A stretch of 51,747 nt of DNA, taken from Acetobacteraceae bacterium. Its GTDB lineage: Bacteria > Pseudomonadota > Alphaproteobacteria > Acetobacterales > Acetobacteraceae. The stretch covers positions 1 to 51,747 of the forward strand of contig JASHRV010000364.1 of NCBI GenBank assembly GCA_030037175.1, read 5' to 3'. Position 1 is the stretch's first letter. The number at the start of each line of letters is the position of its first letter. Position numbers and translations under genes: made by a program. This document shows positions 4,686 through 28,434 of this stretch, in pieces. The notes beneath the pieces were generated by a model. The model was not told the origin of the DNA, searched no databases, and saw only the letters and a list, made by a program, of their open reading frames with translations.

Positions 4686-5815
4686 CGCCTGATGGCGAGA
4701 TCGGCCTCGGCGAATGCCACTACCCGGGCGGCATTGCCGGCCCAGGTGAAGTCCCGGCGCTTGATCTCGGCCCGCGCCGTTTCGCCGAGCCGAAGCCTGA
4801 GCGCCGGGTCGGCCGCCAGCCGCGCGATCGCCTGCCACATCGAGTCGGGCCGGTCGGGATCGAAGAGCAGCGCGCTTTCCTCGTGGGTGACGATCTCGCG
4901 GATATTGGGCTGGTCCGGAGCAACGACGGCGCAGCCTGCGGCCATGTATTCGAAGAGCTTCAGAGGCGAGGCATAGGCGAGCGCGCGCGGCTGCAGGGCG
5001 ATGTCAAAGCCCGCCAGCAGGGAAGGCACCGTCTCCCTCGGCGCAAGCCCGGTGAATCGCACCCGCCCCCCGCAGCCGAGCGAACGGGCCAGCGCCGCGA
5101 GCGCCGGGCACGCCGGCCCCTCGCCCGCCACCACCAGCGAAAGGCCCGGACCCGCTTCGGCGATGCCGCGAATGACCGCGTCCAGCCCATGCCAGGGCCG
5201 GGCAAAGCCGATGAAGCCGAGGACGAGGTCCTGCCCCTCGCGTGCCGGCCTGCGGGGCAGGAAGCGGCCTGGATCGACCCCATTCGGGGTGATGGCAATA
5301 CGCTCCGCCGCAACACCTTCGGCGACAATCATTCGGCCGAGCGCGCTGGTGACGGCGAAGATCCTGTCGGCCGCGCGCCAGACCCGGCGCTCCGCGGCGC
5401 GGGCGAGGCCGCCAAGCCCGATCCCGCCGAAGCGGCTCCGCTCTTCGGCGAGCGGCGCATTCACCTCGAGATAGAACGGCACCCGACGCCTTCGTGCGAG
5501 CCAGGCACCGGCAAGGTAATAGAGATTGTAGCGCTCATAGATCAGGTCCGGGCGGAACCCGGCAGCAGCCCGGGCGAGGCGGCGCGCCGCGGGCAGGTTG
5601 TAGGCGAGCTCGGCCAGTTCGGCCACCGCGCGCGGCAGCAGTCGCCGCGCCAGCACCACCGTCCGGCTCTCGCCTCCGAAATCGGAGCGAGCATAGAGGC
5701 TCGGACCTACCACCAGCACCTCGTGGCCAGCAGCGCGCAGCGCGCCGACCAGTTCCTCGATATGCACGGACTGCCCATCATGAGACTGAATGCGGTGACT
5801 GTAGAGGATCCGCAT
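4682..5815 (-). CDS. Glycosyltransferase family 4
   Basis: 377 residues from ATG 5815; a GTG directly before it (5818) could also serve. The upstream acyltransferase stop overlaps this start (TGATG), so translation is coupled. GT-B fold: N-terminal HRIQSHDGQSVHIEELV glycine-loop region, C-terminal ITPNGVDPGRF, GFIGFARPWHGLD, VVAGEGPA and SPLKLFEYMAAGCAVVAPD with its donor-binding glutamates. Predicted cytoplasmic, membrane-associated retaining sugar transferase in EPS repeat-unit assembly. Specificity not inferable. Confidence 0.9.
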   Translation of the reverse strand: MRILYSHRIQSHDGQSVHIEELVGALRAAGHEVLVVGPSLYARSDFGGESRTVVLARRLLPRAVAELAELAYNLPAARRLARAAAGFRPDLIYERYNLYYLAGAWLARRRRVPFYLEVNAPLAEERSRFGGIGLGGLARAAERRVWRAADRIFAVTSALGRMIVAEGVAAERIAITPNGVDPGRFLPRRPAREGQDLVLGFIGFARPWHGLDAVIRGIAEAGPGLSLVVAGEGPACPALAALARSLGCGGRVRFTGLAPRETVPSLLAGFDIALQPRALAYASPLKLFEYMAAGCAVVAPDQPNIREIVTHEESALLFDPDRPDSMWQAIARLAADPALRLRLGETARAEIKRRDFTWAGNAARVVAFAEADLAIRR

Positions 5816-6921
5816 CACGATCTCCGACCACGGCCGAGCACTGCCATCAGGCGCCGGCGCCCGGCGCCTACGAAAGAATGGCCGATTTCGGCGATGCCGC
5901 GCACGCTTCGCGGATCGGCAAGCACAAGGCCGATCCGCTGCCGCCTTCCTGCGGCCCAGAGCCGCTTGTACGGATCATCGCCGCGCCCGAAATCGAGCTC
6001 GGCGATCCGCTCCTCTCTAAGCAGGTGCTCAATCATCAGGGCAGTGAGCACGGTACCGGGTGAGGCCTGAGCCAGGGCCTCGTCATGGGCGAGCTTGAGC
6101 AGCATGGCGCGCCCGCCCGAGACGATCCAGAATTGCACCGCGGCTACCTGCTCCCCAAGCCGGAGCACGCCAAGCCGGAGAAGACCCGCCTCAGCCGCCG
6201 CCCGCATCAGCGCCGGCTGGAAGGCGGGAAAGGGCTCAGGCTCTTTCCAGCTCCGCGCATAGACCGCCTCATAGGCGGCGATTCCGTCCGCGAGCGCCGC
6301 CCCGCCGGTGACCAGGGAGAAGCCCTGCTCCGTCCCCGCGCGACGCGCTTTTCGCCGGATGGTCGCCCGCAGCGCCCCGGGCCGCGCCGCGAGATAGTCG
6401 GTGAAGGAGCGGCCGGCCACGCTCTCGTGCCAGTTGCCGAAATGATCGAAGCGCAGCACGGCAAGCCCCGCGCTTCGCAGCCCGGCGATGAATGGCTCGA
6501 GACTGGGCGCCTCGGCTTCGAGGGAGTCGAGTCGCACCGGCGCAGGGCCGCGGAGGAGTCGCCCGATCAACGCCCCCGCCTCCACCGCCGGGAAACCCGG
6601 CACGAAGAACGGACGATAGGCGCAGCTGTAGGGGCCGGTCAGGGCGCCGAGTCCTGTCCCGTCGGCTCGGCCGGCAAGCGGCAGCAGGGCGAAGGGCACG
6701 CCGCCCGCGCTGCAGACGGCGAAACGCGGCACACAGCCCGCGGGCAGGCCGTGCGCAATCAGCGTGGCGAACCAGAGGCGGCTCGCAAAGAAATCCTCGC
6801 CGGGATCGCCGAAGAGCTCCAGGGCAGCGTCCGGCAGCGCCGCAAGCGCGTCATGGACGCAAAGCGCGACAGGCTCGCCCTCAGTAACGCAAATGGTACC
6901 AGACAAGGCCAATCCATTCAT
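5815..6921 (-). CDS. CelD/FemAB-like GNAT acyltransferase
   Basis: About 368 residues. The double-GNAT family usually annotated 'cellulose biosynthesis protein CelD' is recognisable from the C-terminal half: RATIRRKARR helix, QFWIVSGGRAMLLKLAHDE and LDFGRGDDPYKRLWA, the usual late family signature. The role is likely acyl or aminoacyl transfer to a surface polysaccharide or its precursor. The start is uncertain: ATG 6921 overlaps the 3' end of the YdcF gene by 41 nt and has no clear ribosome-binding site; in-frame TTGs at 6912 or 6906 are alternatives. The 3' end overlaps the GT4 start. One of three proteins of this superfamily in the window. Confidence 0.8.
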   Translation of the reverse strand: MNGLALSGTICVTEGEPVALCVHDALAALPDAALELFGDPGEDFFASRLWFATLIAHGLPAGCVPRFAVCSAGGVPFALLPLAGRADGTGLGALTGPYSCAYRPFFVPGFPAVEAGALIGRLLRGPAPVRLDSLEAEAPSLEPFIAGLRSAGLAVLRFDHFGNWHESVAGRSFTDYLAARPGALRATIRRKARRAGTEQGFSLVTGGAALADGIAAYEAVYARSWKEPEPFPAFQPALMRAAAEAGLLRLGVLRLGEQVAAVQFWIVSGGRAMLLKLAHDEALAQASPGTVLTALMIEHLLREERIAELDFGRGDDPYKRLWAAGRRQRIGLVLADPRSVRGIAEIGHSFVGAGRRRLMAVLGRGRRS

Positions 6922-7624
6922 GAAAGGCGTAGTATGCATCCACCCATGCCGTGACGGTGGGCGCAAAATCCGCAAGCACAGGGGTGGGCATACGATCGAT
7001 CCGCACCGGCACGGCCGTGGCGATGATGCCGAAATGACGGAAACAGAAGAGCGCGCGCCGCATATGCCATGCATGGGTGACGAGATAGATCGAGCCTATG
7101 CCGTGATGGCTCAGAATCGCCGCGCTGAAGGCCGCGTTCTGCCAGGTGTTCGCCGATTGCCCGTCCTGCCAGCGGACCGGAACGGCGAAATCCTGTTCCA
7201 GCGCTGCGGTCATTCTGGAGGCGATCGAGGGGCCGCCGCCGGTATCCGGCCGGCCACCGGTGACCAGGATCGGGAGATGGACGCGATCGTAAAGCACCGC
7301 CCCGGCCGCCACGCGTTCGAGCGTAAGCGGCCCGATGCCGAATCCGCTCGGCCCCACCGCATGCACGACATCTCCGGCGAGAATCACGATTGCTTGAGGC
7401 GGGTCTTCGGGCGGTGGTGTGAGGGGCAGGCCCTGCTCGAGCGAAGCCAGCAGGGTCCCCGAGACCGCCGGCATCGAGAGAAGCAGGAGCAGGGCCGCGC
7501 TGATCCCGCTCAAAACGAGCCCAAGGCAACGCCAGCGCCAGCCGAGCGCTGCTCCGGCGACGGTGAGCGGAATCACCGCCAGCGGCGGCACCACCAGCGC
7601 CGTGGCGAAAACATTGAGCGACAT
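6881..7624 (-). CDS. YdcF/ElyC-like (DUF218) membrane-anchored protein
   Basis: 247 residues. Two N-terminal hydrophobic segments (about 5-28 and 33-58) followed by a DUF218 domain: AIVILAGDV strand, VLYDRVHLPILVTGG with the conserved TGG, SANTWQNAAFSA (the usual E is replaced by Q-N context) and YLVTHAWHMRRAL. The family includes E. coli ElyC and SanA, linked to envelope polysaccharide and undecaprenyl-phosphate metabolism; biochemical activity is still unclear. First gene of the minus-strand operon ending at 2677, so its promoter lies in 7625-7939. Starts at ATG 7624. Confidence 0.85.
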   Translation of the reverse strand: MSLNVFATALVVPPLAVIPLTVAGAALGWRWRCLGLVLSGISAALLLLLSMPAVSGTLLASLEQGLPLTPPPEDPPQAIVILAGDVVHAVGPSGFGIGPLTLERVAAGAVLYDRVHLPILVTGGRPDTGGGPSIASRMTAALEQDFAVPVRWQDGQSANTWQNAAFSAAILSHHGIGSIYLVTHAWHMRRALFCFRHFGIIATAVPVRIDRMPTPVLADFAPTVTAWVDAYYAFHEWIGLVWYHLRY

Positions 7625-7939
7625 TCAGCAATCTATCCAGGCTTGCGACGCGGCGGTGCACTTGCAGTCTGCCAGCTTGGCGCAGAGAGGACCAAGCGGG
7701 CGGCGATCCGAGCCGGCAGGTGCGGCCGGGCAGCGGGACGGCCGGCGGTCGATGCGCCCGCTCATTGACCTTTGCCCGCCCGCCGCTTCAGGCTTCGCCA
7801 ATTGGCCACTCAACCCATGCATGGTCGGAAGCACGGGGAGAAGGAGAAGGGAGACCGCTCCCATGCGGCTCGAACCGCGAACGGGTGCGATCTTCCCGCA
7901 TTGGCACGGACGGCAGCCGGAAAGGGCACGGCCGCCTCG
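7625..7939. other. Divergent intergenic region, 315 bp
   Basis: Separates the YdcF operon (minus) from a CelD-like gene (plus) and must carry promoters in both directions. The only suggestive element is TGGCACG around 7910, a perfect -24 half of a sigma-54 promoter, but the -12 half is GCAG instead of TTGC at the right spacing, so I do not call it. No tRNA, small RNA or additional gene is convincing. Confidence 0.35.
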
Positions 7940-9085
7940 ATGACGGATCTGCGGGTTAGCCTTGCGCCAGTGCCGGACGCCGACGCGCTGGGCGAGCGAT
8001 GGGAAGCGCTGGAAGAGCGCTCCGACTGCTCGTTCTTCCAGAGCTGGACCTATACCGGATGCCTCATCCGGGAACGGTTCCCGGACCCGCTCCTGCTCGA
8101 AGTCCGTGGCGCAGATATGCCCCGGGATGTGCCCATCGCACTTGCTCTCTTCAACCGCCGCCGCGAGCGGTTCGGAGCCGAATGCCTGCTGCTTGGGGAA
8201 AGCGGCATCGCCTCGTTCGATACGGTCTTCATCGAGCATAATGGCCCGCTGGTGGCACGCGGTTTCGGCCCGACCGTTCTGCCGCACCTGCTGCGCGCGG
8301 CGATCAAGCGTCGCCTTGCACCATGGACTCTGCCGACGGGTCGGCGCGTCGTGCTGAGCGGCGTCAATGACGAAGTTCTCGCCGCTGCCCGCGCGAGCGG
8401 CATGGTGACGGCGCTCAGGGAAACGCGGCTCGCGCCGGTCGTCGATCTCGCCCTCCTTCGGCGCGAGGGCCTCGGCGTGCTCGACCGGCTGAGCGCCAAT
8501 GCGCGCTACCAGCTTCGCCGTTCGGAACGGCGTTTTTCGGCATCGGGCCCCGTCATGGTCCGCCGCGCCGCGGACGCAGCGGAGGGACACCGGTGGCTCG
8601 AGGCGCTCGCGGCGCTGCACCAGCACACCTGGCAGAGCCGTGGCCAGCCGGGCGCTTTTGCGGACGAGAATTTCCGCCGCTTCCATCACGCCCTGATCGA
8701 TCGCGGGCTCAGGCTGGGGCAGGTCGACCTCTTGGAAATAACGGCCGGAGAGCGCCGCCTCGGCTACCTTCTGAACTTCGTGTACCGCGGCACTGTCTAT
8801 GCATATCAGAGCGGGTTCGATTACGCGCTTGCCGACCGGCACGAGAAACCCGGACTGACCGCGCACCATCACGCGATCGAGATGTATTTGCGGGAAGGTC
8901 TCGACCACTACGATTTTCTCGGCGGCGCTGAGCGCTACAAAACGAGTCTGGCCGGAACGGCGAGCCGCCTGCACTGGGCGGTGCTGGCGGCTCGGTGGTC
9001 GCCTCCGGGAATGCTGTTTCGCCTCAGGCACGGCTACACCACGCTCGCTGCCGGATTGCAGCGAAACGGTGGCCGCGAACGGTAG
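7940..9085 (+). CDS. CelD/FemAB-like GNAT acyltransferase
   Basis: 381 residues from ATG 7940. Same superfamily as the gene at 5815-6921 but a different subgroup. Visible signatures: SFFQSWTYTGC near the N-terminus, NARYQLRRSERRF (helix preceding the acetyl-CoA fold), HQHTWQSRGQPGAFAD, GYLLNFVYRGTVYAYQSGFD and YDFLGGAERYKTSLA. Likely acylates or otherwise decorates a polysaccharide precursor in the cytoplasm. Monocistronic: it is divergent from the YdcF operon and ends 25 nt before the convergent PEP-CTERM gene, with no room for a separate terminator. Confidence 0.82.
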   Translation: MTDLRVSLAPVPDADALGERWEALEERSDCSFFQSWTYTGCLIRERFPDPLLLEVRGADMPRDVPIALALFNRRRERFGAECLLLGESGIASFDTVFIEHNGPLVARGFGPTVLPHLLRAAIKRRLAPWTLPTGRRVVLSGVNDEVLAAARASGMVTALRETRLAPVVDLALLRREGLGVLDRLSANARYQLRRSERRFSASGPVMVRRAADAAEGHRWLEALAALHQHTWQSRGQPGAFADENFRRFHHALIDRGLRLGQVDLLEITAGERRLGYLLNFVYRGTVYAYQSGFDYALADRHEKPGLTAHHHAIEMYLREGLDHYDFLGGAERYKTSLAGTASRLHWAVLAARWSPPGMLFRLRHGYTTLAAGLQRNGGRER

Positions 9086-17943: not shown

Positions 17944-18870
17944 TCAGAAGGCCGCTTTCAGAACCCTCTTGACCCCTTTCGGCAAGACCATCGACGCGGT
18001 CTTGCGCAGCCGATTCATTGGTGTGCGATCTGCGGGGACGAAATCGCGCCATTCGGTCAACCGCAGGTATTTCTCATACTCCGCCTTCCGCGGGTGATTG
18101 CAGAGATAGGTCCACGGCTTGGACCAGCCGTTGAAATGAATGATGCGGGCTTCGCGCAGGACCGCTTGAATCTCCGCCCGCGGCAGCGGGAGGACAGGCG
18201 GCTCGCGGAAAAACGGCCGGATGACATTCCATTTGTAATCGAGCCGCTTCCTCCTGCCGTGGAAGCAGGCGTTCAGCACGTCCTGATCGAGCTCGCGCAA
18301 ACGCGCATGATTGGCGGAAACATAGTCGAGCGCTTCGTCCAGGGCGCGGGTCCGGCGCCATTGTTCGATATCTATGAGCAGTACGCCGGCGTTGAAATAG
18401 CCGTCCTCGGCGCGCATTCCGAGATTCTCCACACCCCGTTGCGACCCGGGAATGTCGACCGCACCGAGCAGCGCCCCGCCAAGATCGACATTCCAGAGAG
18501 GGGCTACGCTGCCGACGATTACCATGTCGCTGTCGAGATAGAGCGCTCGATCGATGTTTGCACCGAAGAAGTCTGCGACCCAGAGGCGAGTCCAGTTGTC
18601 CAAGGTATAGTGCGCCCGCGGGTTGAGCGGTAGAACGCGATCCGCGGGCGGCGCGAATTGTCGGAACCGTAACGAATGGTTGCGAAAAACTTGAAGCGAA
18701 CGCCGAAGTTTGTCTTCGTTCAATGCTTCTCCTTCCCGGCTCACCATGACGACGTCGAAGAAGAGGTCCTGGCTGTTCGCCAGCAACGAGGTCAGGCAGA
18801 CCGCCGCGTGCTGTTGGAAGAGGGCGTTGGTGCAGAGAAGAACCTGCGCGCATGTTCTGCTTGGCATCAT
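17944..18870 (-). CDS. Glycosyltransferase family 8
   Basis: 308 residues from ATG 18870 (a second ATG follows immediately). GT-A fold with QVLLCTNALFQQHAAVCLTSLLANS at the N-terminus, the metal motif YLDSDMVIVGSV (DSD), GYFNAGVLLIDIEQWR and LDQDVLNACF, and the late HFNGWSKPW with the catalytic-site His, all characteristic of the LgtC-like GT8 family. Retaining transfer of galactose or glucose is typical. It stands alone on the minus strand, divergent from the phage-like cassette and convergent with FkbM. Confidence 0.92.
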   Translation of the reverse strand: MMPSRTCAQVLLCTNALFQQHAAVCLTSLLANSQDLFFDVVMVSREGEALNEDKLRRSLQVFRNHSLRFRQFAPPADRVLPLNPRAHYTLDNWTRLWVADFFGANIDRALYLDSDMVIVGSVAPLWNVDLGGALLGAVDIPGSQRGVENLGMRAEDGYFNAGVLLIDIEQWRRTRALDEALDYVSANHARLRELDQDVLNACFHGRRKRLDYKWNVIRPFFREPPVLPLPRAEIQAVLREARIIHFNGWSKPWTYLCNHPRKAEYEKYLRLTEWRDFVPADRTPMNRLRKTASMVLPKGVKRVLKAAF

Positions 18871-19320: not shown

Positions 19321-19350
19321 ACATTCGCCGGGAAGGCCCCGGGCGAATGT
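19321..19350 (+). promoter_or_regulatory. Stable leader hairpin
   Basis: Arms ACATTCGCC-GGG and CCCG-GGCGAATGT pair over 12 bp with a single bulge and a short loop. No U-tract follows, so it is not a standard terminator; it lies 65 nt before the start codon of the phage-like gene, where it could stabilise the messenger or control its translation. Confidence 0.5.
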
Positions 19351-19414
19351 CATGGGAGGCGCCCGCCGCGCGGCCCCCATGCCCACACACGCCAAAGCCA
19401 AAGGAGACCTGCCC

Positions 19415-19984
19415 ATGAACGTTGCCCAGTCGTCGGCGAGCGCTGCCCTCAACGCGCTCGATGCGCTCTACAACTCCGGCACGCTCACCCTCTATCAGGG
19501 TGCAATCCCGGCGACGCCCGAGACGCCGATCAGCGCGCAGACCGCGCTCGCCAAGTTCACCTTTGCGGATCCGGCCTTTGCCGCGCCAATCTTCACCAGT
19601 CTACAGGAAGTAGCGGCCGCTTCCTTCGCCAACCCGAGCGTCGCGCCGAGCGCGGATGGTACGGCCTGCTTCGCCCGTGCCGTTGCCAGCACTTACGGCA
19701 CCGTCCTTGCCGATTATACGGTCGGCGCTGCGTGGCAGCCTGGTGCGACCGTGATGGCCGGCCAGTACGTGGTCAGCAACGGGAATACCTATGTCTGTCA
19801 GACGGCTGGCACCACGGCGGCAAGCGGTGGCCCGAGCGGCACCGGAACCAACATCGCCGACGGGACGGCGGTATGGAACTTCAACAACGCCGGCAGCACC
19901 GACATCGTGATCTCGACGACGGCGCTCAACACCGGCATCCCGCTCAACGTGACGAGTCTGACGCACGCGCTGCCCGCCGTCTGA
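19415..19984 (+). CDS. Phage decoration/tail-type structural protein with inserted carbohydrate-binding-like module
   Basis: 189 residues from ATG 19415, chosen for AAAGGAG ending 9 nt upstream. The ends resemble a small structural protein common in tailed phages and prophages: ASAALNALDALYNSGTLTLYQGA followed by LAKFTFADPAF at the start, and DIVISTTALNTGIPLNVTSLTHALP at the end. Between them, about 105-158 (WQPGATVMAGQYVVSNGNTYVCQ to GTAVWNF), is a module seen repeatedly in phage tail/fibre proteins and resembling CBM5/12-like carbohydrate-binding folds. No signal peptide and no PEP-CTERM tail. It is 23 nt upstream of the large gene and surely co-transcribed with it. I recognise the family by eye only; no search was possible. 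Confidence 0.65.
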   Translation: MNVAQSSASAALNALDALYNSGTLTLYQGAIPATPETPISAQTALAKFTFADPAFAAPIFTSLQEVAAASFANPSVAPSADGTACFARAVASTYGTVLADYTVGAAWQPGATVMAGQYVVSNGNTYVCQTAGTTAASGGPSGTGTNIADGTAVWNFNNAGSTDIVISTTALNTGIPLNVTSLTHALPAV

Positions 19985-20007
19985 CTGCGTCCCCAAGGCA
20001 GTGCCAG

Positions 20008-23000
20008 ATGACCAACATCGTTCTTCCGACCTTCCCCGCTCTCGCCTCCGGGGCGATCTTCATTAAGGGCATCGCGAACAACGGGAACGGCGCGAGCGGC
20101 GCGCAGTACGTGACGTTCGCGCACTCCTTTCAAGCGGGGCAGCTTGCGGAGGGTATTGGCCTCAGCGCCGATTTCAGTTCCGGCGCCGTTCCCTGCCAAG
20201 TCGATGTCAAAACACGCTATGCGGATGGCTCAGCTGCGCACGCCATCATCAGCGTGCAGGCGCCAGCGGTTGCGGGCGGCGCGACGAGCTGGGGCCAGTT
20301 CTCGCCGGCCGCGCCGCCCGGTGGCGCCGATTTGAGCTTCCCGAGCGCGCTTGGCTCCAACACGCTCTCTCTGGAACTCGCTGCGTCCCAGCTCCCGGAC
20401 TGGACCGCTTCGGACACCCAGACGCTCGGCGCATTGATCGTCCCAGCCGCGGGCAACGAGGGCGGCTACATGTTCCAGTGCACGACGACCGGCGTGACCG
20501 GCACGACCGCCCCGACCTGGCCGCAAACCGTAGGCGCGCCCGTGACGGACGGCGGCGCGATCTGGACCAACGTCGGGCCGAATTTCAGCGGCACGCTAAC
20601 GCAGGATCTGGTGGCGCTGGTCAACGCGGCGACACCGAATCTCTGGCTCAATGGCCCGCTTGCGATCGAAGGCCGAGCCTCAGCGATCCTCTATGAAACG
20701 CTACGCGTGCAGATCGATATGCGTGCCTATGCCGACGGCACGATCAACGCCGACGTCATGCTGGCCAACGATATCGCGACGACGATCACCAGCGGGCAGT
20801 CAGTCTTCGGGGGCACGCTAGCCTACGCCGCGAGCCTCGTGCTGAACGGGAGTACCGCCTATGCGAGCGCGGCACTCCAGCACTATCTGTACGAGAACTG
20901 GAGCTGGCAGGTCGGCACCGTTGCGCGTGTCGTCAATTCATCGCAAGATCTGACCCTTCAGATTATCCACAGCCCGAACGATTTCATCGCCGCCCAGGCG
21001 ACGCAAGCCTATAACACGACGCTTGGCGTGGTGGAGCAGGCTTCGGCAGGAGTGGGTCCTTATCAGGGCGCGCAGGGTTTCGTCGCGGCCGCAGGATTCG
21101 GCGAGCCTCTTACGAACCCGAGCTTCAATGGCAGCAACCTCGTTGCCTATAGCATGGCCGGCGTTGGCGGGCGACCCGACATCGGGCTCAACGACTCCTG
21201 GTGCTGCTGGTGGTACGTCACGCAGAACCAGTCGTTTCTCGGGACGAATTTCGAGTGCGCCAAGGTCGGCGGCAGCATCCCGTGGCATTTCTGGAACGAG
21301 GAGACGGGCGATTACATTACGACCGACGATTCTCCGTACCTTTGGTCGGAGATTGGCCCAGGTACATACGCACAGCCTTACACGCCGCAGTATGGCGGCC
21401 TTACGTTGCTGGCGCTGACGACCACGGACCCCAACTGGGACATCCAGACGGCACATTTCCCCGAACTTGTTTATCTGAGCTATGTCACCACAGGACGACG
21501 GTACTTCCTGGATGAGCTGAACGCCGTGACGGCGTGGGTCGAGACATCGGCGCCGCAGAGCGGGCCTTATAGGAATTACGCCCAGGGCCTTGTGATGCGG
21601 CAAGGACAGGTGCGCGCCGCCTCCTGGGGAATACGCAATATCCTCTACGCGACCTATGCCAATCCGGACGGGAGCACGATGAAGCTCTATTTCCGGCAGA
21701 TGCTCGACAACAATCTTTATTGGTTCCTCACGCAGATGGGAACCTATCAGGCGATTCAAGGGCCCGAATGCTTCGGCTGGTATCCGGACTGGAGCTACGG
21801 GTCAAACCTGGCAAATTGGGAGGAGAGCTATCTCTTCTCCAGCCTCAGCATGGCGGCGATCATGGGCCATCCGATCGCCTTGCAGATCTGCCAATGGATG
21901 GCGAACTATTTCATTGGCCTCTTCACCAACGGCACGAACAATCCGCCGAGCGGATTTCCTCCCGCGGAGGCCGTGGTCTATGTGATGGAGGTCTTCCAGG
22001 ACTTCGGAACGGAGACCGGATACGGTACCGCCTACGCATGGGGCAGCCAATGGCTTCCCGCACAGACCTGGGAGGCGATCGAAAGCCTCATTCAGCAGTC
22101 GGGAATATCAAACATCTCCGACGGCGAAGTTGTCTGGTTCGCGGGCGTCGGCGGAGGCAGCGGTTCTTACGGAGACTACGGGCAGCTTCTTTGGATCACC
22201 CTGGCCAATTACATCACGCTGGGCCAGCCCGGCGCGAGCGCAGCGCTGACCACGCTGCAGACGATGACCGCGGCGAACGGCACCAACGCCCCTTATATCG
22301 ACGACGCGAGTTGGGCCGGGGACAACGACCAGTTCCTGACGATGGTGATCTCGCGCACGCTCAACGATTCTCAGATCCTTCCTGCCGCCGCCGCGCCGTC
22401 CGCCGCGCCGATCAACGCCAATCCGGTGGTAGGAACACTCGGCGCCGCTGCCGCTATGACAACGGGCGGCGTGCCGGTCGATTCGATGTCAGGCGCGCCG
22501 ATGGTCGGCGCGCTGAAGGTCAAGGGGGCTCTGTCGGTGACGGTCGGGAATACGAATTTCCTTGTAGACGGAACGGTCGCTTTCGGTGGCGTGAGCGCCA
22601 GCGCGATCTCCGGTTCGCTCACGACCGACAACGCGGGCGATGTGATCGTTCTCTTCATCGAGAGCGACGGTGGCCCCGTGACCGGGGTCACGGACACGGC
22701 CGGCCTGACATGGATGCGACGGAAAAACGTCGTGTTCAACGGCGTCCAGCAATTCGACGAATGGTATGCCGTGGCGCCGAAAGCGTTGAGCGGCGACGTC
22801 ATCACGGTCAGGCAGACCTATTCCGAGTATCTGGCCGCGTGTGCAGTCGCGGTCAGCGGCGCGAACACGTCCGCCCCATTCGACGACAATCCCTCCGTTC
22901 CGGCCACCGCCGCCGGAACAGACATCTCGATCTCGACCAGCAACGCCAACGACTTCGTCATCGGCGGCTACCGGGTCGGGCTGACGGCGAGCCCGACGGC

Positions 23001-23358
23001 GGGCGCCGGATGGATTCAGGACTGCGGACAATTCTATCTGCTCGTCGAGCACCAGTTCACCTCGGCCACACAGTCCGCGCTCGCGCTTACGATTGGAACC
23101 GGAAACGGCAACGAGCAAGTGGGCATCGGGGATGCGATCGTCGCGGCGATCCAGCCTGTGGCACTCTCGGGCGCTCCGGTGATCGGGCCGCTCGCGGCGG
23201 CCGCGGCGCTCGCCCTGCCAACCTACGCAGTTCTGGCGGCGAACGCGTCGGAGGCTGTTTCCGAGCTGGAGAGCGCTCTGAGCGCGCTCGGGCAGTGGCA
23301 GGCAGCGATGGCGGCGCAGGCGGCTTCAATCGAGGCAGTGCTTGCCGGACTCACGTGA
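20008..23358 (+). CDS. Large multidomain protein, putative polysaccharide-active enzyme with phage-fibre-like modules
   Basis: 1,116 residues from ATG 20008. An N-terminal beta region (1-135), an inserted module at about 140-190 (similar in type to that of the preceding gene), then a core ending near 795 that is a clear paralogue of the secreted protein at 26338-28434: both share VGGRPDIGL (386-394 here), a Trp-rich patch before IPWHFWN, DYITTDD, RNYAQGL, QVRAASW and YANPDGSTMKLYFRQM. The helical, aromatic-rich core suggests an alpha/alpha-toroid lyase or hydrolase, but I cannot name a family or catalytic residues. The C-terminal third has a beta-sandwich of the kind found in phage and adhesion proteins (GVTDTAGLTWMRR, VSGANTSAPFDDNP) and ends in an Ala-rich helix. 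No signal peptide is visible. Confidence 0.7.
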   Translation: MTNIVLPTFPALASGAIFIKGIANNGNGASGAQYVTFAHSFQAGQLAEGIGLSADFSSGAVPCQVDVKTRYADGSAAHAIISVQAPAVAGGATSWGQFSPAAPPGGADLSFPSALGSNTLSLELAASQLPDWTASDTQTLGALIVPAAGNEGGYMFQCTTTGVTGTTAPTWPQTVGAPVTDGGAIWTNVGPNFSGTLTQDLVALVNAATPNLWLNGPLAIEGRASAILYETLRVQIDMRAYADGTINADVMLANDIATTITSGQSVFGGTLAYAASLVLNGSTAYASAALQHYLYENWSWQVGTVARVVNSSQDLTLQIIHSPNDFIAAQATQAYNTTLGVVEQASAGVGPYQGAQGFVAAAGFGEPLTNPSFNGSNLVAYSMAGVGGRPDIGLNDSWCCWWYVTQNQSFLGTNFECAKVGGSIPWHFWNEETGDYITTDDSPYLWSEIGPGTYAQPYTPQYGGLTLLALTTTDPNWDIQTAHFPELVYLSYVTTGRRYFLDELNAVTAWVETSAPQSGPYRNYAQGLVMRQGQVRAASWGIRNILYATYANPDGSTMKLYFRQMLDNNLYWFLTQMGTYQAIQGPECFGWYPDWSYGSNLANWEESYLFSSLSMAAIMGHPIALQICQWMANYFIGLFTNGTNNPPSGFPPAEAVVYVMEVFQDFGTETGYGTAYAWGSQWLPAQTWEAIESLIQQSGISNISDGEVVWFAGVGGGSGSYGDYGQLLWITLANYITLGQPGASAALTTLQTMTAANGTNAPYIDDASWAGDNDQFLTMVISRTLNDSQILPAAAAPSAAPINANPVVGTLGAAAAMTTGGVPVDSMSGAPMVGALKVKGALSVTVGNTNFLVDGTVAFGGVSASAISGSLTTDNAGDVIVLFIESDGGPVTGVTDTAGLTWMRRKNVVFNGVQQFDEWYAVAPKALSGDVITVRQTYSEYLAACAVAVSGANTSAPFDDNPSVPATAAGTDISISTSNANDFVIGGYRVGLTASPTAGAGWIQDCGQFYLLVEHQFTSATQSALALTIGTGNGNEQVGIGDAIVAAIQPVALSGAPVIGPLAAAAALALPTYAVLAANASEAVSELESALSALGQWQAAMAAQAASIEAVLAGLT

Positions 23359-23526: not shown

Positions 23527-24459
23527 ATGTTCTATCGCTGGCGACGAGCCTTTGCGGCCCGGAGGTTCAACCGGCGGATAGCGGGCATCTTCGCGACACC
23601 TCCGCTGCGCCTCATCGAAGCGCCGCTATCCATCGTCAGCATGGTCTCGATCGCAGACCTGCCGATGTACCTGCTGGCGATCAAGAGCCTCTACCGCCGA
23701 CTGCGGGGAGGGAAAGTCGTCGCGATCATCACGCGTGCTTCGCCGGCCTCCCTCCGCAGGCAGCTCGAGGCGCATGTGCCCGGCATCGAAATCGTCGAGA
23801 TCGAAAGCATCCCGGTCGGAGCCTGCCAGCGTGGCGGAACCTGGGAGAGGCTCCTCTACATTGCTGATCGCATGGAGCGCGAGTATGTCATCCAACTGGA
23901 TTCGGATACCCTTACGATCGGGCCGGATATTCCGGAAGTCGCAGCATGCGTCGCCGAAAACCGTTCGTTCGTGCTCGGCGGAGGGCCGGCTGCCTCCGGC
24001 CAGCATATCGTCTCGATGACCGAGGCGGCCGCGAGCATCGATTTTGTGAGCTCGTATATTGGTATCGTCGCCCAGCGCCGCCTCGACGCATACCCGGACG
24101 CACATTCGTTGCGGTACGTTCGGGGTTCGTCCGCTTTCGCCGGTTTTGCGCGCGACAGCTGCAGCCGACGAAAAATCGAGGAATTCCACCACACCATGGC
24201 CGGGTTGATCGGAGCGCGTTGGACGGAATGGGGAACCGAGCAGTGCGCGTCCAACTTCGCGATCGCCAATGCGTCGGGGGCGACTGTCCTGCCTTGGCCG
24301 GACTATGCCAATTTCCAGCCGGCGCGGTCCCCGGAAAGAGCACGGTTCCTGCACTTCCTCGGGGCGGTGCGCTATGAAAAGGGCTGCTACGTTCGGCTTG
24401 CCCGGCAGGCGATCCCCAGGATCGCCATGGAGAAAGGCAACGAGGTGGCCGGCCAATGA
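23527..24459 (+). CDS. Glycosyltransferase-like protein (GT-A nucleotide-diphospho-sugar fold)
   Basis: 310 residues from ATG 23527 with an excellent GGGAGAGGGA site. VSMVSIADLPMYLLAIKSLYRRL and the metal-binding motif YVIQLDSDTLTIG (DSD) fit a GT-A transferase of the GT8-like or uncharacterised group; RGSSAFAGF and EFHHTMAG belong to the acceptor side. It is probably another cytoplasmic sugar transferase of the locus. Exact family not assigned. Confidence 0.7.
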   Translation: MFYRWRRAFAARRFNRRIAGIFATPPLRLIEAPLSIVSMVSIADLPMYLLAIKSLYRRLRGGKVVAIITRASPASLRRQLEAHVPGIEIVEIESIPVGACQRGGTWERLLYIADRMEREYVIQLDSDTLTIGPDIPEVAACVAENRSFVLGGGPAASGQHIVSMTEAAASIDFVSSYIGIVAQRRLDAYPDAHSLRYVRGSSAFAGFARDSCSRRKIEEFHHTMAGLIGARWTEWGTEQCASNFAIANASGATVLPWPDYANFQPARSPERARFLHFLGAVRYEKGCYVRLARQAIPRIAMEKGNEVAGQ

Positions 24460-24769: not shown

Positions 24770-26341
24770 ATGAGCGCCGAGCGGTCGATGAAGCCTGCCG
24801 CCACAGGCAGCGAGGATGCCGGCCTTGCGAGCCTTGCTCGGCCGGGCTCGATTCTCCAACGCACAGCCCACGGCGCCGCGTGGGTGATCGGCTGGCGGGT
24901 GGCGACACGACTGCTCGGCGTCCTCAACACCCTCGTCCTGGTACGGCTGCTGGCGCCCACGGATTTCGGCCTCGTTGCCCTCGGCTATGGTTTCGTGGGC
25001 GGCCTCGACGCACTCTGCACCGTCGGGGTCGAAGAAGCGATCATCCGCGACGATCGCCCCGACCGCGAGCTCTACGATACCGGCTTCACCATCAATCTTC
25101 TCCGCTCGCTCGGCATGGGGGCCGTTCTGGCCGCTACCTCCGCGACGATCGCGAGCCTGCTTGGCGATCGGCGCCTGGAGGCCATCGTGGTCGTTTTCGC
25201 CGCGATGATCACGCTCACCGGTCTCACCAATATCGGCGTGATCGACTTCCGGCGCTATATCGCGTTCGACAAGGAATTTTTCCTGCAGATCGTACCGCGC
25301 GTGCTGTCGATCGTAGTCGCGATCGCCGCCGCCATGATCTGGAGGAGCTATTGGGCGCTGGTCGCCGGGATCGTCTCCGCCAGCGTGTCCGGCGTGGTCT
25401 TCAGCTACTGGATGCACCCTTACCGACCAAGGTTGACGCTTTGCGCGTGGCGGCGATTGGCCGGGTTCTCTCTCTGGGTGTGGATGCTCGGCGTGATCAG
25501 AACGCTGCGCACCCAAGCTCCAAACCTTATTGTCGGTCGGCTGATCGGCCCTGCTTCGGTCGGGATACTGACCGTCGGCAACGAGGTGGCGAGCCTGCCG
25601 ATCACGGAGTTGGTCGCGCCGCTTAGCCGCGCTTCGTTCTCCGGATTCGCCGCCGGGCGCCAGAGTGATGCGGATCGCGCAGAGGATTTCCTGCGCATCC
25701 TGGGCGCCATGGCGCTGTTCACGCTCCCGGCCGGCATCGGCATCTCGTTGGTCGCCTATCCCGTGATCAAGCTTGCCTTCGGTCCGGACTGGCTGCAGGC
25801 GGTGCCGCTCGTCGAGGTGCTGGGGGTTGCCGGGACGATGACGCTGTTCGGATCGGTCAGCGCCACCTTGTTCACGGCGCACGCCTGGATGCGCCCGATG
25901 GCGAAGATCAGCGGTGCCACGACCATCGCCTGCGTGCTCCTGCTGGCGGCGCTCGTGCCTTATTTCGGCGTGCTCGGCGCAGCCTTCGCGATCGCAATCA
26001 CGGACGCATTCAACCAGGCGATCTATCTGGTGGCAACGTTGCACCGCCTGGGCCTTCGCCTGTCCGCGCTTTTCTCCCGGGTCTGGCGAAGCCTGCTGGC
26101 ATCCACGGCGATGGTGCTCGCGCTCGTGCGGCTCGGGCTCGGTTGGACAGTCCTTCCCGGCAACCAACTGGCCCTCGCGAGCCATCTGTTCTGGGCAGTC
26201 GTACTTGGTGCGGGCGTCTATTTCGCCTTCCTGCTCGGGGCATGGATGGCGGCGGGAAGGCCGTCGGGGGCGGAAGCGGATGTGCTTGCGCTGGCAACCC
26301 ATCTAGCGGGCAACGTCATGCCAGGCCGGAGGCACGCATGA
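24770..26341 (+). CDS. Polysaccharide flippase (Wzx/MATE-like membrane protein)
   Basis: 523 residues from ATG 24770; ATG 24788 is an alternative and neither has a strong ribosome-binding site. The protein is mostly hydrophobic with about 12-14 membrane helices, starting ILQRTAHGAAWVIGWRVATRLLG, and includes the typical VRLLAPTDFGLVALG, LRTQAPNLIVGRLIGPASVGILTVGNEV and ITDAFNQAIYLVATL segments. This family moves lipid-linked sugar units across the inner membrane. It shares its first about 100 residues with the truncated gene at the left edge. The stop overlaps the next start (ATGA), so flippase and the secreted enzyme-like protein are translated together. Confidence 0.9.
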   Translation: MSAERSMKPAATGSEDAGLASLARPGSILQRTAHGAAWVIGWRVATRLLGVLNTLVLVRLLAPTDFGLVALGYGFVGGLDALCTVGVEEAIIRDDRPDRELYDTGFTINLLRSLGMGAVLAATSATIASLLGDRRLEAIVVVFAAMITLTGLTNIGVIDFRRYIAFDKEFFLQIVPRVLSIVVAIAAAMIWRSYWALVAGIVSASVSGVVFSYWMHPYRPRLTLCAWRRLAGFSLWVWMLGVIRTLRTQAPNLIVGRLIGPASVGILTVGNEVASLPITELVAPLSRASFSGFAAGRQSDADRAEDFLRILGAMALFTLPAGIGISLVAYPVIKLAFGPDWLQAVPLVEVLGVAGTMTLFGSVSATLFTAHAWMRPMAKISGATTIACVLLLAALVPYFGVLGAAFAIAITDAFNQAIYLVATLHRLGLRLSALFSRVWRSLLASTAMVLALVRLGLGWTVLPGNQLALASHLFWAVVLGAGVYFAFLLGAWMAAGRPSGAEADVLALATHLAGNVMPGRRHA

Positions 26342-28434
26342 GGCACGGCAAACTCTCCGCATCGCTCGCATTCGCGTTTGCGGTCTCCCTGGCCACGCCC
26401 GCATTCGCCAGCCCCAGGACTGTGTTGGTCGCGTCTGCTGCCATTCCCCAGCCAACGCGGCCGGGCGAGATCGTCGGGCTGGTTCTGCAGAATCTCGGCA
26501 AGACGACGACACCGGTTCTGCCACTCACATTCGGTGAGGTATTCAAGCCGGGCGCGGTCATGCCGGACGACCAGCTTCTGCTCGACATTGGCAAGCAAAT
26601 CCCGATCCAGGTGGACCCTAGAACCTACAATTCCGATGGTTCGGTCGCCATGGCAACGCTCACCGTGATGGCGCCACCCTTGCCGGCGCGCACCGCTACG
26701 GGCGCGATAGTGGTGCGGGCTCCGGCCGACGCACCGCCGCCGGCTGCTCCCGTCGATCTTTCCGCAGTACTCGCGCATTACCACCTGAACGTCGTTCTCG
26801 ATTTCAAGACTCCTGACGGTTCGACGAATCGGATCACGGTCAATGGCGTGGCTGCCCTGCAGGCGGGCCTGCAGAAGGGCACAGCAAGCATCTGGCGCCA
26901 TGGCCCGGAGGCAAGCGAAGCGCTTGTCAATGTGCCGGTGCGCGGATCGTTCCGCCTTGTCTTCGACATCACCGCCTTCGCGAACGGCACGTTTTCAAGC
27001 GACCTGCGGTTCGACAATGATATCGCGATGCAGCCGGTTGGTGGCACCGTCACCTATGACGAGCAGATCATCCAGAATGGACAGACGGTCTCTCAACAGA
27101 GCAACATCACGCAGTTCCAATACCAGGACTGGCACACGGTGGTCGGCACCTCCAGCCCGGCTGCAGACGTGAACATCCAGCACGATATCGCCTATCTGGA
27201 AGAGACCGGGGCAATTCCCAACTTCGATCTCCATCTCGGTGTCGTCACCTCGCTTCTCGCCCAGGAAGCCGCCATCATGGCCAAACCGGGATGGGGGAAT
27301 CCCCTCTCGTCGAATTTTATAACGAAGTCGATGCCAGCGGTCGGCGGGCGGCCGGATATCGGCCTGACGACGGCGTGGAACGCGGCCTGGCTGATGACGC
27401 AGAATCCGATCGCTGCGCGGTTCGCCCTTGGCCAAGCCGACGCCGCCAGCGCGGTGCCTTGGCACTTCTTCTACCCCCCTGCCAGAGGATATCTCACCAC
27501 CCAGGATATTCCGACCATCTGGATCGAGGCTTCGCTCCAACACCCGTTCACCGCGACGCCCCTGACGCAGCCGCTGACGGTGGTCGACGGCTGGAGGGTC
27601 GATCCGGCGCATCAACCGGACCTCTCCTACGTCGCTTACCTGCTGACCGGCAGCGAGTACAACCTCGATCAGCTCAACGCGCAGGCAGCCTGGTGCGAAA
27701 CGATGTTCTGGCCGGCCCCTCAGGCACGAAACTGGGGCCAAGGGCTGGTGGTGCAAGGCAATCAGGTACGCGCCGCCGCTTGGAGCCTGCGCGAGATCGT
27801 CGAAGCAGCCTATGCCAACCCGACGGGTTCGCCGATGCAGCGCTATTTCCGGAAGATGGAGAACAACAATTTTTCTTGGCTGGTTGCGCAGATTCCCGCC
27901 TGGACAGCGAATGAAGGGCAAGCCTACGGCTACATTCCTGGGCTCTACGGCAGCCGCGGGTCGATGGGTGCCTGGGAACAGGATTTCCTGGCGAGCACCG
28001 TGGTGCTCGCCGCCGAGCAAGGCGACCAGCAGGCCGTTACCTTCCTCAAGTGGGAAAGCAATTTTCTGGTTGGACGCTTCCTCAACCAGGACAACGGTTT
28101 CAATCCGCGCGACGGGGTGGCCTACAACATTTTCACTTACGACCCCCACACCGGCCGGACCTACAAGACCTGGGCCGAGATTGAAAAGGCGACCGAAGCG
28201 GCAGATGGCTCCAACGGCAACGGCTGGAAGCGCAGCAACGGCTACTATGCCCAGCTTGGGCTGGCGAGCTTGGCGGGCATCATTAGCGTGACCGGGTCGG
28301 ACCAGGCTCGCAAAGCCTATCGCTGGTTGCTCGCCAGCGGCGCGCCTTTTATCGATCCCGTCTCGCGTGCGACCTGGCCCCAATTCGCCGTCGTGCCGCG
28401 CCGCGGGCGGGCGGCTCGTCCGGCGACACATTGA
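26338..28434 (+). CDS. Secreted paralogue of the large EPS-locus protein (putative polysaccharide-active enzyme)
   Basis: 698 residues from ATG 26338 (overlap ATGA with the flippase). Signal peptide about 1-25 (LSASLAFAFAVSLATPAFA). Then a beta-rich N-terminal part and a helical, aromatic-rich core collinear with the core of the protein at 20008-23358: VGGRPDIGL (335-343), VPWHFFYPP, GYLTTQD, LDQLNAQAAW, RNWGQGL, QVRAAAW, YANPTGSPMQRYFRKM. This version lacks the phage-like modules and carries a signal peptide, suggesting that it acts in the periplasm or outside on the EPS as a lyase, hydrolase or transferase. I do not recognise a named family and catalytic residues are not assignable by eye. 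Confidence 0.7.
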   Translation: MRHGKLSASLAFAFAVSLATPAFASPRTVLVASAAIPQPTRPGEIVGLVLQNLGKTTTPVLPLTFGEVFKPGAVMPDDQLLLDIGKQIPIQVDPRTYNSDGSVAMATLTVMAPPLPARTATGAIVVRAPADAPPPAAPVDLSAVLAHYHLNVVLDFKTPDGSTNRITVNGVAALQAGLQKGTASIWRHGPEASEALVNVPVRGSFRLVFDITAFANGTFSSDLRFDNDIAMQPVGGTVTYDEQIIQNGQTVSQQSNITQFQYQDWHTVVGTSSPAADVNIQHDIAYLEETGAIPNFDLHLGVVTSLLAQEAAIMAKPGWGNPLSSNFITKSMPAVGGRPDIGLTTAWNAAWLMTQNPIAARFALGQADAASAVPWHFFYPPARGYLTTQDIPTIWIEASLQHPFTATPLTQPLTVVDGWRVDPAHQPDLSYVAYLLTGSEYNLDQLNAQAAWCETMFWPAPQARNWGQGLVVQGNQVRAAAWSLREIVEAAYANPTGSPMQRYFRKMENNNFSWLVAQIPAWTANEGQAYGYIPGLYGSRGSMGAWEQDFLASTVVLAAEQGDQQAVTFLKWESNFLVGRFLNQDNGFNPRDGVAYNIFTYDPHTGRTYKTWAEIEKATEAADGSNGNGWKRSNGYYAQLGLASLAGIISVTGSDQARKAYRWLLASGAPFIDPVSRATWPQFAVVPRRGRAARPATH

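Follow-up and report, generated by a model that had tools for sequence, protein, structure and literature searches.

The head spike of RcGTA, a gene transfer agent (GTA), consists of a base, Rcc01079, and a fibre, Rcc01080 (PMC7296036). The fibre binds the capsule, and the capsule genes include rcc01081-01086 (PMC10218006); because these locus numbers are adjacent, the spike genes appear to neighbour the capsule genes. The RcGTA tailspike TspA (rcc02623) is a biofilm-degrading enzyme encoded apart from the GTA cluster (PMC13420450). Connector proteins are described in two further sources. 9RKV is a tail-fibre map of Agrobacterium phage 7-7-1, whose garland protein gp014 contacts tail fibres of both the short and the long kind (PMC12796354). 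The Milano garland proteins share the fold of T4 gp8 and A511 gp105, which link receptor-binding proteins to the baseplate (PMC10811340). Polysaccharide lyase family 26 (PL26) is represented by PcRGLX of Penicillium chrysogenum (5xqg). Here we describe two adjacent genes, P1 and P2, in a 51,747-nucleotide stretch of DNA from an Acetobacteraceae bacterium (contig JASHRV010000364.1), here called the window. The pair lies in an exopolysaccharide (EPS) locus. We consider it probable, with some reserve, that it is a polysaccharide-targeting module of tailed phages of this genus, captured by an XrtA/PEP-CTERM EPS locus and kept by selection.

The likeness to RcGTA lies in a small base and a larger polysaccharide-binding protein near capsule genes, by locus number, and in a phage-derived depolymerase encoded apart from the particle genes; TspA is a beta-helix protein, whereas P2 is PL26-like. 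P1 has a fold like that of the garland/BW3TFN connectors (7-7-1 gp014, Milano gp125/127, A511 gp105 and T4 gp8), but differs from them in its CBM5/12-like insert and its encoding in a bacterial EPS locus. In two prophages, the gene after the P1-type one is fibre- or decoration-like. P2 resembles PcRGLX in overall fold, but at 9-10% identity, with other ends and without reaching the Pfam profile. PL26-like proteins from EPS loci of the same bacterial family, among them a nearby paralogue, P3, have a core homologous to that of P2, and several lie in XrtA-type loci; theirs have signal-peptide-like starts or RTX/CBM60 tails, whereas P2 has phage modules and groups with one phage protein. Literature searches on domesticated EPS-locus depolymerases, exosortases with tail fibres and PL26 phage depolymerases, covering open-licence papers, returned no report of this arrangement.

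Phage relatives and lineage of P2

The sequence basis of our interpretation is threefold: a relative of P2 lies inside a phage head-tail operon, P1 is by its matches a virion protein, and in two species the pair sits beside the same EPS genes and is under purifying selection. The profile searches against phage structural families proposed in an earlier note on this DNA matched residues 3-134 of P1 to phrog_3758 ("virion structural protein", E=3e-14) and residues 131-187 of P2 to a phrog_20658 module ("head decoration", E=1e-6). Single-protein searches were empty for P1 and P2 in annotated phages and IMG/VR and for P2 in GTDB contigs, as was a search with the P2 C-terminal part alone in phages and IMG/VR. 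A three-row alignment query retrieved one IMG/VR locus, IMGVR_UViG_3300032896_000025 (L127), and one GTDB contig, JAKAWQ010000079.1, which by match position is the contig carrying the pair in a second genome of the genus, G183. A 49-row alignment query, drawn from 47 core-homologue references and omitting L096 (truncated, with an extra N-terminal part) and the fragments L049 and L106, retrieved nine IMG/VR loci, namely L127 and eight more.

L127 encodes a 970-residue P2 homologue (5720-8632) that matches P2 residues 1-868, with 41% identity in the best segment. The gene follows that of the head-tail adaptor (phrog_442) and precedes, after a gap of 7 bp, a gene without a Pfam family; a prohead protease gene (PF04586) lies upstream, and sheath (phrog_23) and tube (PF04985) genes lie downstream. 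The homologue is encoded inside a structural operon, as is characteristic of a phage depolymerase or tailspike, while the position of P2 is in the EPS locus. Phages of the L127 type are resident as prophages both in G000, the genome of the window (contigs C343/C193), and in G183 (C136). Identities between L127 and the G000 and G183 prophages reach 82% and 88% for the putative major capsid protein, 78% and 71% for the sheath, and 91% and 79% for the tube; the capsid protein is named by position only, since it has no Pfam match and PHROG 13692 is of unknown function. Over 61 residues, the virion module of P2 shares 56% identity with a segment of the resident prophage's tail sheath protein (L053), and phrog_20658 also occurs in the head-tail adaptor of L127. 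As a separate observation, a module of about 55 residues resembling phrog_20658 is found within one phage type in the sheath, the head-tail adaptor and P2 (Table 1).

A tree of 35 rows was inferred by a quick method from hand-picked sequences (24 of 47 host rows and nine viral rows, with L132 omitted as a copy of L133). P2, its G183 counterpart and L127 formed one group with an SH-aLRT branch support of 100, which included neither P3 nor any other host row in the tree, and six viral proteins formed a separate group among the host rows. Judged from this placement, P2 is of phage lineage. Given that P2 groups with L127 while the six viral proteins lie among host rows, repeated exchange of the family between phages and hosts is probable. 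The tree also bears on the opposite origin, in which P2 would be a host-born EPS enzyme that arose by duplication of P3 and later acquired phage modules. Without viral rows P2 was indeed placed beside P3 (SH-aLRT 86, stem 1.51); once they were added, P2 joined the phage protein at 100 and left P3, so that this origin is largely refuted and we regard it as highly improbable. The phage-structural origin that the earlier note had proposed for both proteins is borne out by the PHROG matches, the phage homologue and its clade support, together with the fold of P1.

The remaining IMG/VR loci carry PL26-like proteins in other phage settings. The L128 protein has tail-fibre and endolysin neighbours, that of L135 an endolysin neighbour and that of L134 tail-fibre and baseplate neighbours, while L131 encodes a 1534-residue protein near virion and DNA-ejection families. 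L129, L130, L132 and L133 are arranged like L128 by eye, but for L129, L130 and L133 the scanned neighbours belong to a family of unknown function. EBPR siphovirus 1 gp39 (L136, 779 residues) is distantly related to P3 (24%). The PL26-like proteins of L128-L135 and gp39 are likely to be unnamed phage depolymerases. Those of L128-L135 measure 579-616 residues, with one of 1534, and where checked most of them have tail, endolysin or virion genes nearby. A further match, in BFVD, is A0A6J5SAL0 (uncultured Caudovirales phage, E=1e-12).

Table 1. Positions of the P1-P2 pair, its domains and the related genes; positions refer to the window unless a locus is named.
Feature	Position	Strand	Evidence or remark
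P1, 189 aa, phage virion protein, garland/connector fold, CBM5/12-like insert	19415..19984 (ATG start to stop)	+	phrog_3758; 9rkv_A; dN/dS
CBM5/12-like module within P1, about residues 106-160	19730..19894	+	PF02839 E=8e-4; missing from five relatives
P2, 1116 aa, phage-lineage PL26-like spike/lyase (predicted)	20008..23358 (ATG start to stop)	+	L127 homologue; clade SH-aLRT 100; fold; dN/dS
P2 residues 1-100, N-terminal beta domain, anchor-like	20008..20307	+	unusually conserved with L127
P2 residues 131-190, phage virion module	20398..20577	+	phrog_20658 E=1e-6; common to resident-prophage sheath
P2 residues 201-790, PL26-like core, beta domain and alpha/alpha toroid	20608..22377	+	5xqg fold; invariant residues
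P2 variable C-terminal part, about 210-220 aa	22495..23157	+	alignment; sequences
P2 residues 1080-1115, C-terminal helix, possibly coiled coil	23245..23352	+	pLDDT 70-79 over 1081-1110; ~50% identical in G183
GT8 glycosyltransferase, left neighbour, divergent	17944..18870	-	PF01501 E=2.5e-40; 68% in G183; gene order kept; start per simple gene caller
Right neighbour, conserved	23527..24459	+	50% in G183, opposite strand there
P3, host EPS-locus PL26-like paralogue, signal-peptide-like start; outside pair	26338..28434	+	33% to P2, E=6e-73; PF19501 15.6 bits
phrog_20658-like module carriers	L053: 919-2679; L054: 1041-1874; L127: 4835-5668 and 10248-12008; window: 20398-20577		

P1 and its inserted module

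The best PDB sequence match of P1 is 9rkv_A (E=1e-5). Its AlphaFold model, built from seven sequences with a mean predicted local distance difference test (pLDDT) score of 66, superposes on the same chain at Z 15.0 over 127 residues with a root-mean-square deviation (rmsd) of 2.1; the row after it in the fold search stands at Z 7.5, and A511 gp105 at Z 4.9. Chain size and fold indicate that 9rkv_A is probably gp014 of 7-7-1. By sequence and fold match, P1 resembles connectors of the garland/BW3TFN kind. Residues 106-136 match CBM_5_12 (PF02839, E=8e-4), under the family cutoff. In a seven-row alignment, both ends of P1 align to five prophage-borne proteins of 132-146 residues, none of which has the insert of P1, and P1 accordingly reads as a phage protein with some 52 residues inserted. 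The earlier description of P1 as the ends of a tailed-phage protein around a carbohydrate-binding-like module agrees with these matches.

Across 200 genomes of the bacterial family, phrog_3758 was found in nine: three of the genus (G000, G183 and a broken copy in G134) and six others. P1-like genes lie near portal, terminase, major head or virion protein genes in G095, G108, G143 and G191, and near an integrase gene in G179 (all by PHROG). As for the next larger gene after the P1-like gene, that of G108 resembles a fibre gene and that of G095 a fibre or head-decoration gene.

Architecture and fold of P2

The comparison with alpha/alpha-toroid lyases suggested in the earlier note gave a PL26-like core. 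The predicted structure of P2 residues 14-795 aligned to 5xqg at Z 12.2 (523 residues, rmsd 4.6); the top four rows of the fold search were all PL26 (Z 11.8-12.2, 523-541 residues), with other alpha/alpha-toroid enzymes at or below 10.4. Confidence in the model is mixed (mean pLDDT 64.7, and below 50 over residues 792-1077). In this model P2 has the PL26-like combination of a RIFT barrel and an alpha/alpha toroid. PF19501 (PcRGLX_1st, cutoff 22.1 bits) is matched below its cutoff by P3 (Table 1), L058 (14.8 bits) and L057 (20.1 bits), in agreement with the fold result; P2 had no match to this profile at E<=1. Seven residues (R389, D391, H483, R536, R543, N569 and W604) are invariant in 35 of 35 rows and kept in P2.

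The C-terminal part of P2 is of its own kind in G000, consists of 22-residue repeats in G183 and is of a third kind in phage L127; it was matched in two of 299 genomes of the order, G000 and G183. An idea that C-terminal repeats anchor P1 was dropped; an ad hoc motif was found in one other, unrelated-looking protein among 784. P2 had been described as a locus-specific core with phage modules and a coiled end. The core, the phrog_20658 module and the end helix all stand, but the core is not specific to the locus, as phages carry it.

Residues 1-100 of P2 are 73% identical to L127, against 44% for the core; for the G183 protein the values are 74% and 41%. The N-terminal excess over the core is thus +0.29 and +0.34. 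Among 960 pairs of host relatives with core identities of 0.35-0.75, which are mutually non-independent and come from a different alignment than the L127 comparison, the N-terminal minus core identity averaged -0.04 (standard deviation 0.07) with a maximum of +0.21. Between P2 and L127, the synonymous divergence (dS) is alike in the two parts (1.2 and 1.4) and the nonsynonymous divergence (dN) is 0.20 in the N-terminal part against 0.56 in the core, which therefore points to constraint rather than recent exchange. Conserved virion anchors are common in phage tailspikes. The pattern suggests that P2 may still dock on something phage-like.

Conservation and decay in the EPS locus

Genes were called with a simple in-house caller, without an annotation pipeline. 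P1 and P2 are both open, separated by 23 bp. The locus is of the exosortase A (XrtA/PEP-CTERM) type, as the cutoffs for exosortase A (TIGR03109), the XrtA glycosyltransferase (TIGR03087) and the XrtA polysaccharide deacetylase (TIGR03006) are all exceeded by genes of the window. A PHROG scan of the ten genes nearest to the pair (E<=1e-4) found no capsid, tail, lysis or integrase families; its two matches were a methyltransferase family and a glycosyltransferase family. Within these ten neighbours, the reported lack of surrounding phage genes is confirmed, and the adjoining phage genes of an ordinary intact prophage are absent. The pair had also been placed between glycosyltransferases, which is shown for the left side (GT8, PF01501) but not for the right, where the neighbour had no Pfam match at E<=1.

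In G183 the pair lies beside the same GT8 gene, with the homologue of the right neighbour on the other strand. Both assemblies are drafts, that of G183 being a metagenome bin; because the gene order is common to the two, misassembly is unlikely. P1 is 79% identical between the two genomes and P2 61%, with dN/dS ratios of 0.15 and 0.23. The residence of the pair in an EPS locus and its conservation elsewhere, both raised in the earlier note, are seen in this orthologous locus. Homologues confined to ordinary prophages, or a lack of structural similarity, would have spoken against that note; we found a homologue in phage L127, but also the G183 pair in its EPS locus.

These values bear on whether the pair is passive cargo, a phage gene pair that fell into the EPS locus and is being lost. 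The copy in G134 is broken, with a stop in P1, P2 cut to residues 25-248 and DDE transposase genes adjoining, and no pair was found in G058, as such loss would predict. Against this, the dN/dS ratios of P1 and P2 resemble those of GT8 (0.18) and P3 (0.185), with the flippase at 0.25 and the right neighbour at 0.27, at dS values of 0.75-1.6 across the genes compared. By part, the ratio for P2 is 0.23 in the N-terminal region and 0.19 in the core. We therefore regard passive carriage as unlikely. The broken copy lies at L049:5210-8306, near EPS-locus genes.

The earlier note had also pointed to a long leader and a hairpin. Both exist, the hairpin being a strong one of about 13 bp upstream of P1 (window ~19325-19355), but neither stands as a conserved feature: apart from the ribosome-binding site, the leader cannot be aligned with that of G183, which has no hairpin at the same place. 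The leader is no more folded than shuffled sequences (z -1.1), gave no Rfam match, and its region contains no promoter-like sites (0.9 expected by chance).

Relation to the resident prophages

To another reading we give a clearly smaller, though real, chance: the EPS locus may supply P1-P2 in trans to the contractile prophage of the same genome, or to particles descended from that prophage, which would then carry a spike matching the host EPS. In evolutionary terms, which are just as tentative, a phage gene would have moved from the head-tail operon to the EPS locus, where it would equip resident-prophage particles in trans and co-evolve with the host EPS. The host would thereby hold the targeting part of a phage, or of a gene-transfer particle resembling one. 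The slot after the head-tail adaptor (L054/L105/L127) varies: it holds the P2 homologue in L127, is empty in G000, where the flanking genes overlap, and contains one small open frame without a Pfam family in G183, so that neither resident prophage has P2 there. The N-terminal excess exceeds the host-pair maximum at similar dS. Furthermore, a putative prophage capsid gene is present in both genomes with an intact pair and was not found in G134, with its broken pair, or in G058, which lacks the pair. RcGTA, with its base, fibre and adjacent capsular polysaccharide genes (rcc01081-86), offers a precedent.

Several points count against supply in trans. The intact pair accompanies the prophage across the four informative genomes, but n=4 proves nothing; in a fifth, G200 (77% complete), the prophage gene is present but neither P2 nor P3 is matched, its EPS locus seemingly not being assembled. 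The G183 prophage owns fibre-like genes, and the pair's leader and the prophage share only short, chance-like sequence. In addition to the non-independence of the 960 pairs and their different alignment, P2 against G183 alone gives an excess of only +0.20. Separately, a GTA of the RcGTA type was considered and set aside: GTA_TIM (PF13547), the one marker tried, was found in none of the five draft genomes of the genus, while a control search found it in one of 14 named genomes (Caulobacter vibrioides). Rcc01079 was not among the matches listed in the P1 fold search, which excludes nothing.

Host PL26-like proteins

P2 has a match in 35 of 200 genomes of the bacterial family, in some via the short module alone. 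Many relatives are short (~700 residues) and begin, by eye, with a signal-peptide-like stretch. Six long relatives without such a start, likewise by eye, were scanned; RTX repeats were found in five, two of which also carry a serralysin C-terminal region, and CBM60 in the sixth. Judged by eye from their neighbours, several host relatives lie in EPS loci, several of which are XrtA-type, and the L062 relative is adjoined by HlyD-type and C39-ABC exporter genes (Pfam). P2 has neither export feature of the host family. PL26-like proteins recur in EPS loci of the family (P3 and L050-L104), often with both forms in one genome, and the cores of the host proteins scanned reached no Pfam or NCBIfam family.

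Proposed function and implications

We propose that P2 would bind, and would probably cleave by beta-elimination, a polysaccharide that is acidic (uronate-containing); the likeliest candidate is the EPS made here. P1 may connect P2 into an assembly and add sugar binding. Given that neither protein has an obvious signal peptide in a simple hydropathy look, and that P2 has no RTX repeats or serralysin C-terminal region at E<=1, both would be set free by cell lysis, either unattached or carried on phage particles, and once released could trim or open the EPS. Because the start of P2 is moderately hydrophobic, though it has no positive charges, export might still occur. Receptor binding by a module of phage descent, encoded in the locus of its likely receptor, could also serve in phage defence, with the pair trimming or masking the EPS so that other phages cannot adsorb. 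Since this is drawn from that placement and no export route was seen, we consider it improbable, more so than passive carriage.

Capture of a phage module followed by retention under selection remains the reading we favour, although several observations weigh against it. The lead of PL26 in the fold search is only 1.8 Z units, and among helical folds Z values below ~13 can arise from a shared arrangement alone. In Pfam and NCBIfam, no profile reached its cutoff with P2. Of 121 columns conserved in the family, P2 differs at 39, including D607 to S, and therefore may bind without cleaving. The loss of a catalytic aspartate unique to P2 was considered and weakened as a candidate, as two host proteins likewise have S or A at position 607. 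The C-terminal part of P2 has a higher dN/dS (0.40), and the intact pair is present in only two of five genomes of the genus, both draft assemblies. Additionally, no P1-like gene was found on the L127 contig, and the pair as such has therefore not been seen in a phage.

The locus ties a phage polysaccharide-targeting gene to a stable place in a host EPS locus. An in-phage relative, an orthologous locus and a decayed locus in a third species together make the direction of capture readable, and PL26-like proteins are seen to move from phages to exosortase-type EPS loci or the other way. Should P1-P2 dock on prophage particles, the binding target of a phage or transfer particle would be set by the host that carries it, a question also raised by the RcGTA head spikes beside capsule genes.

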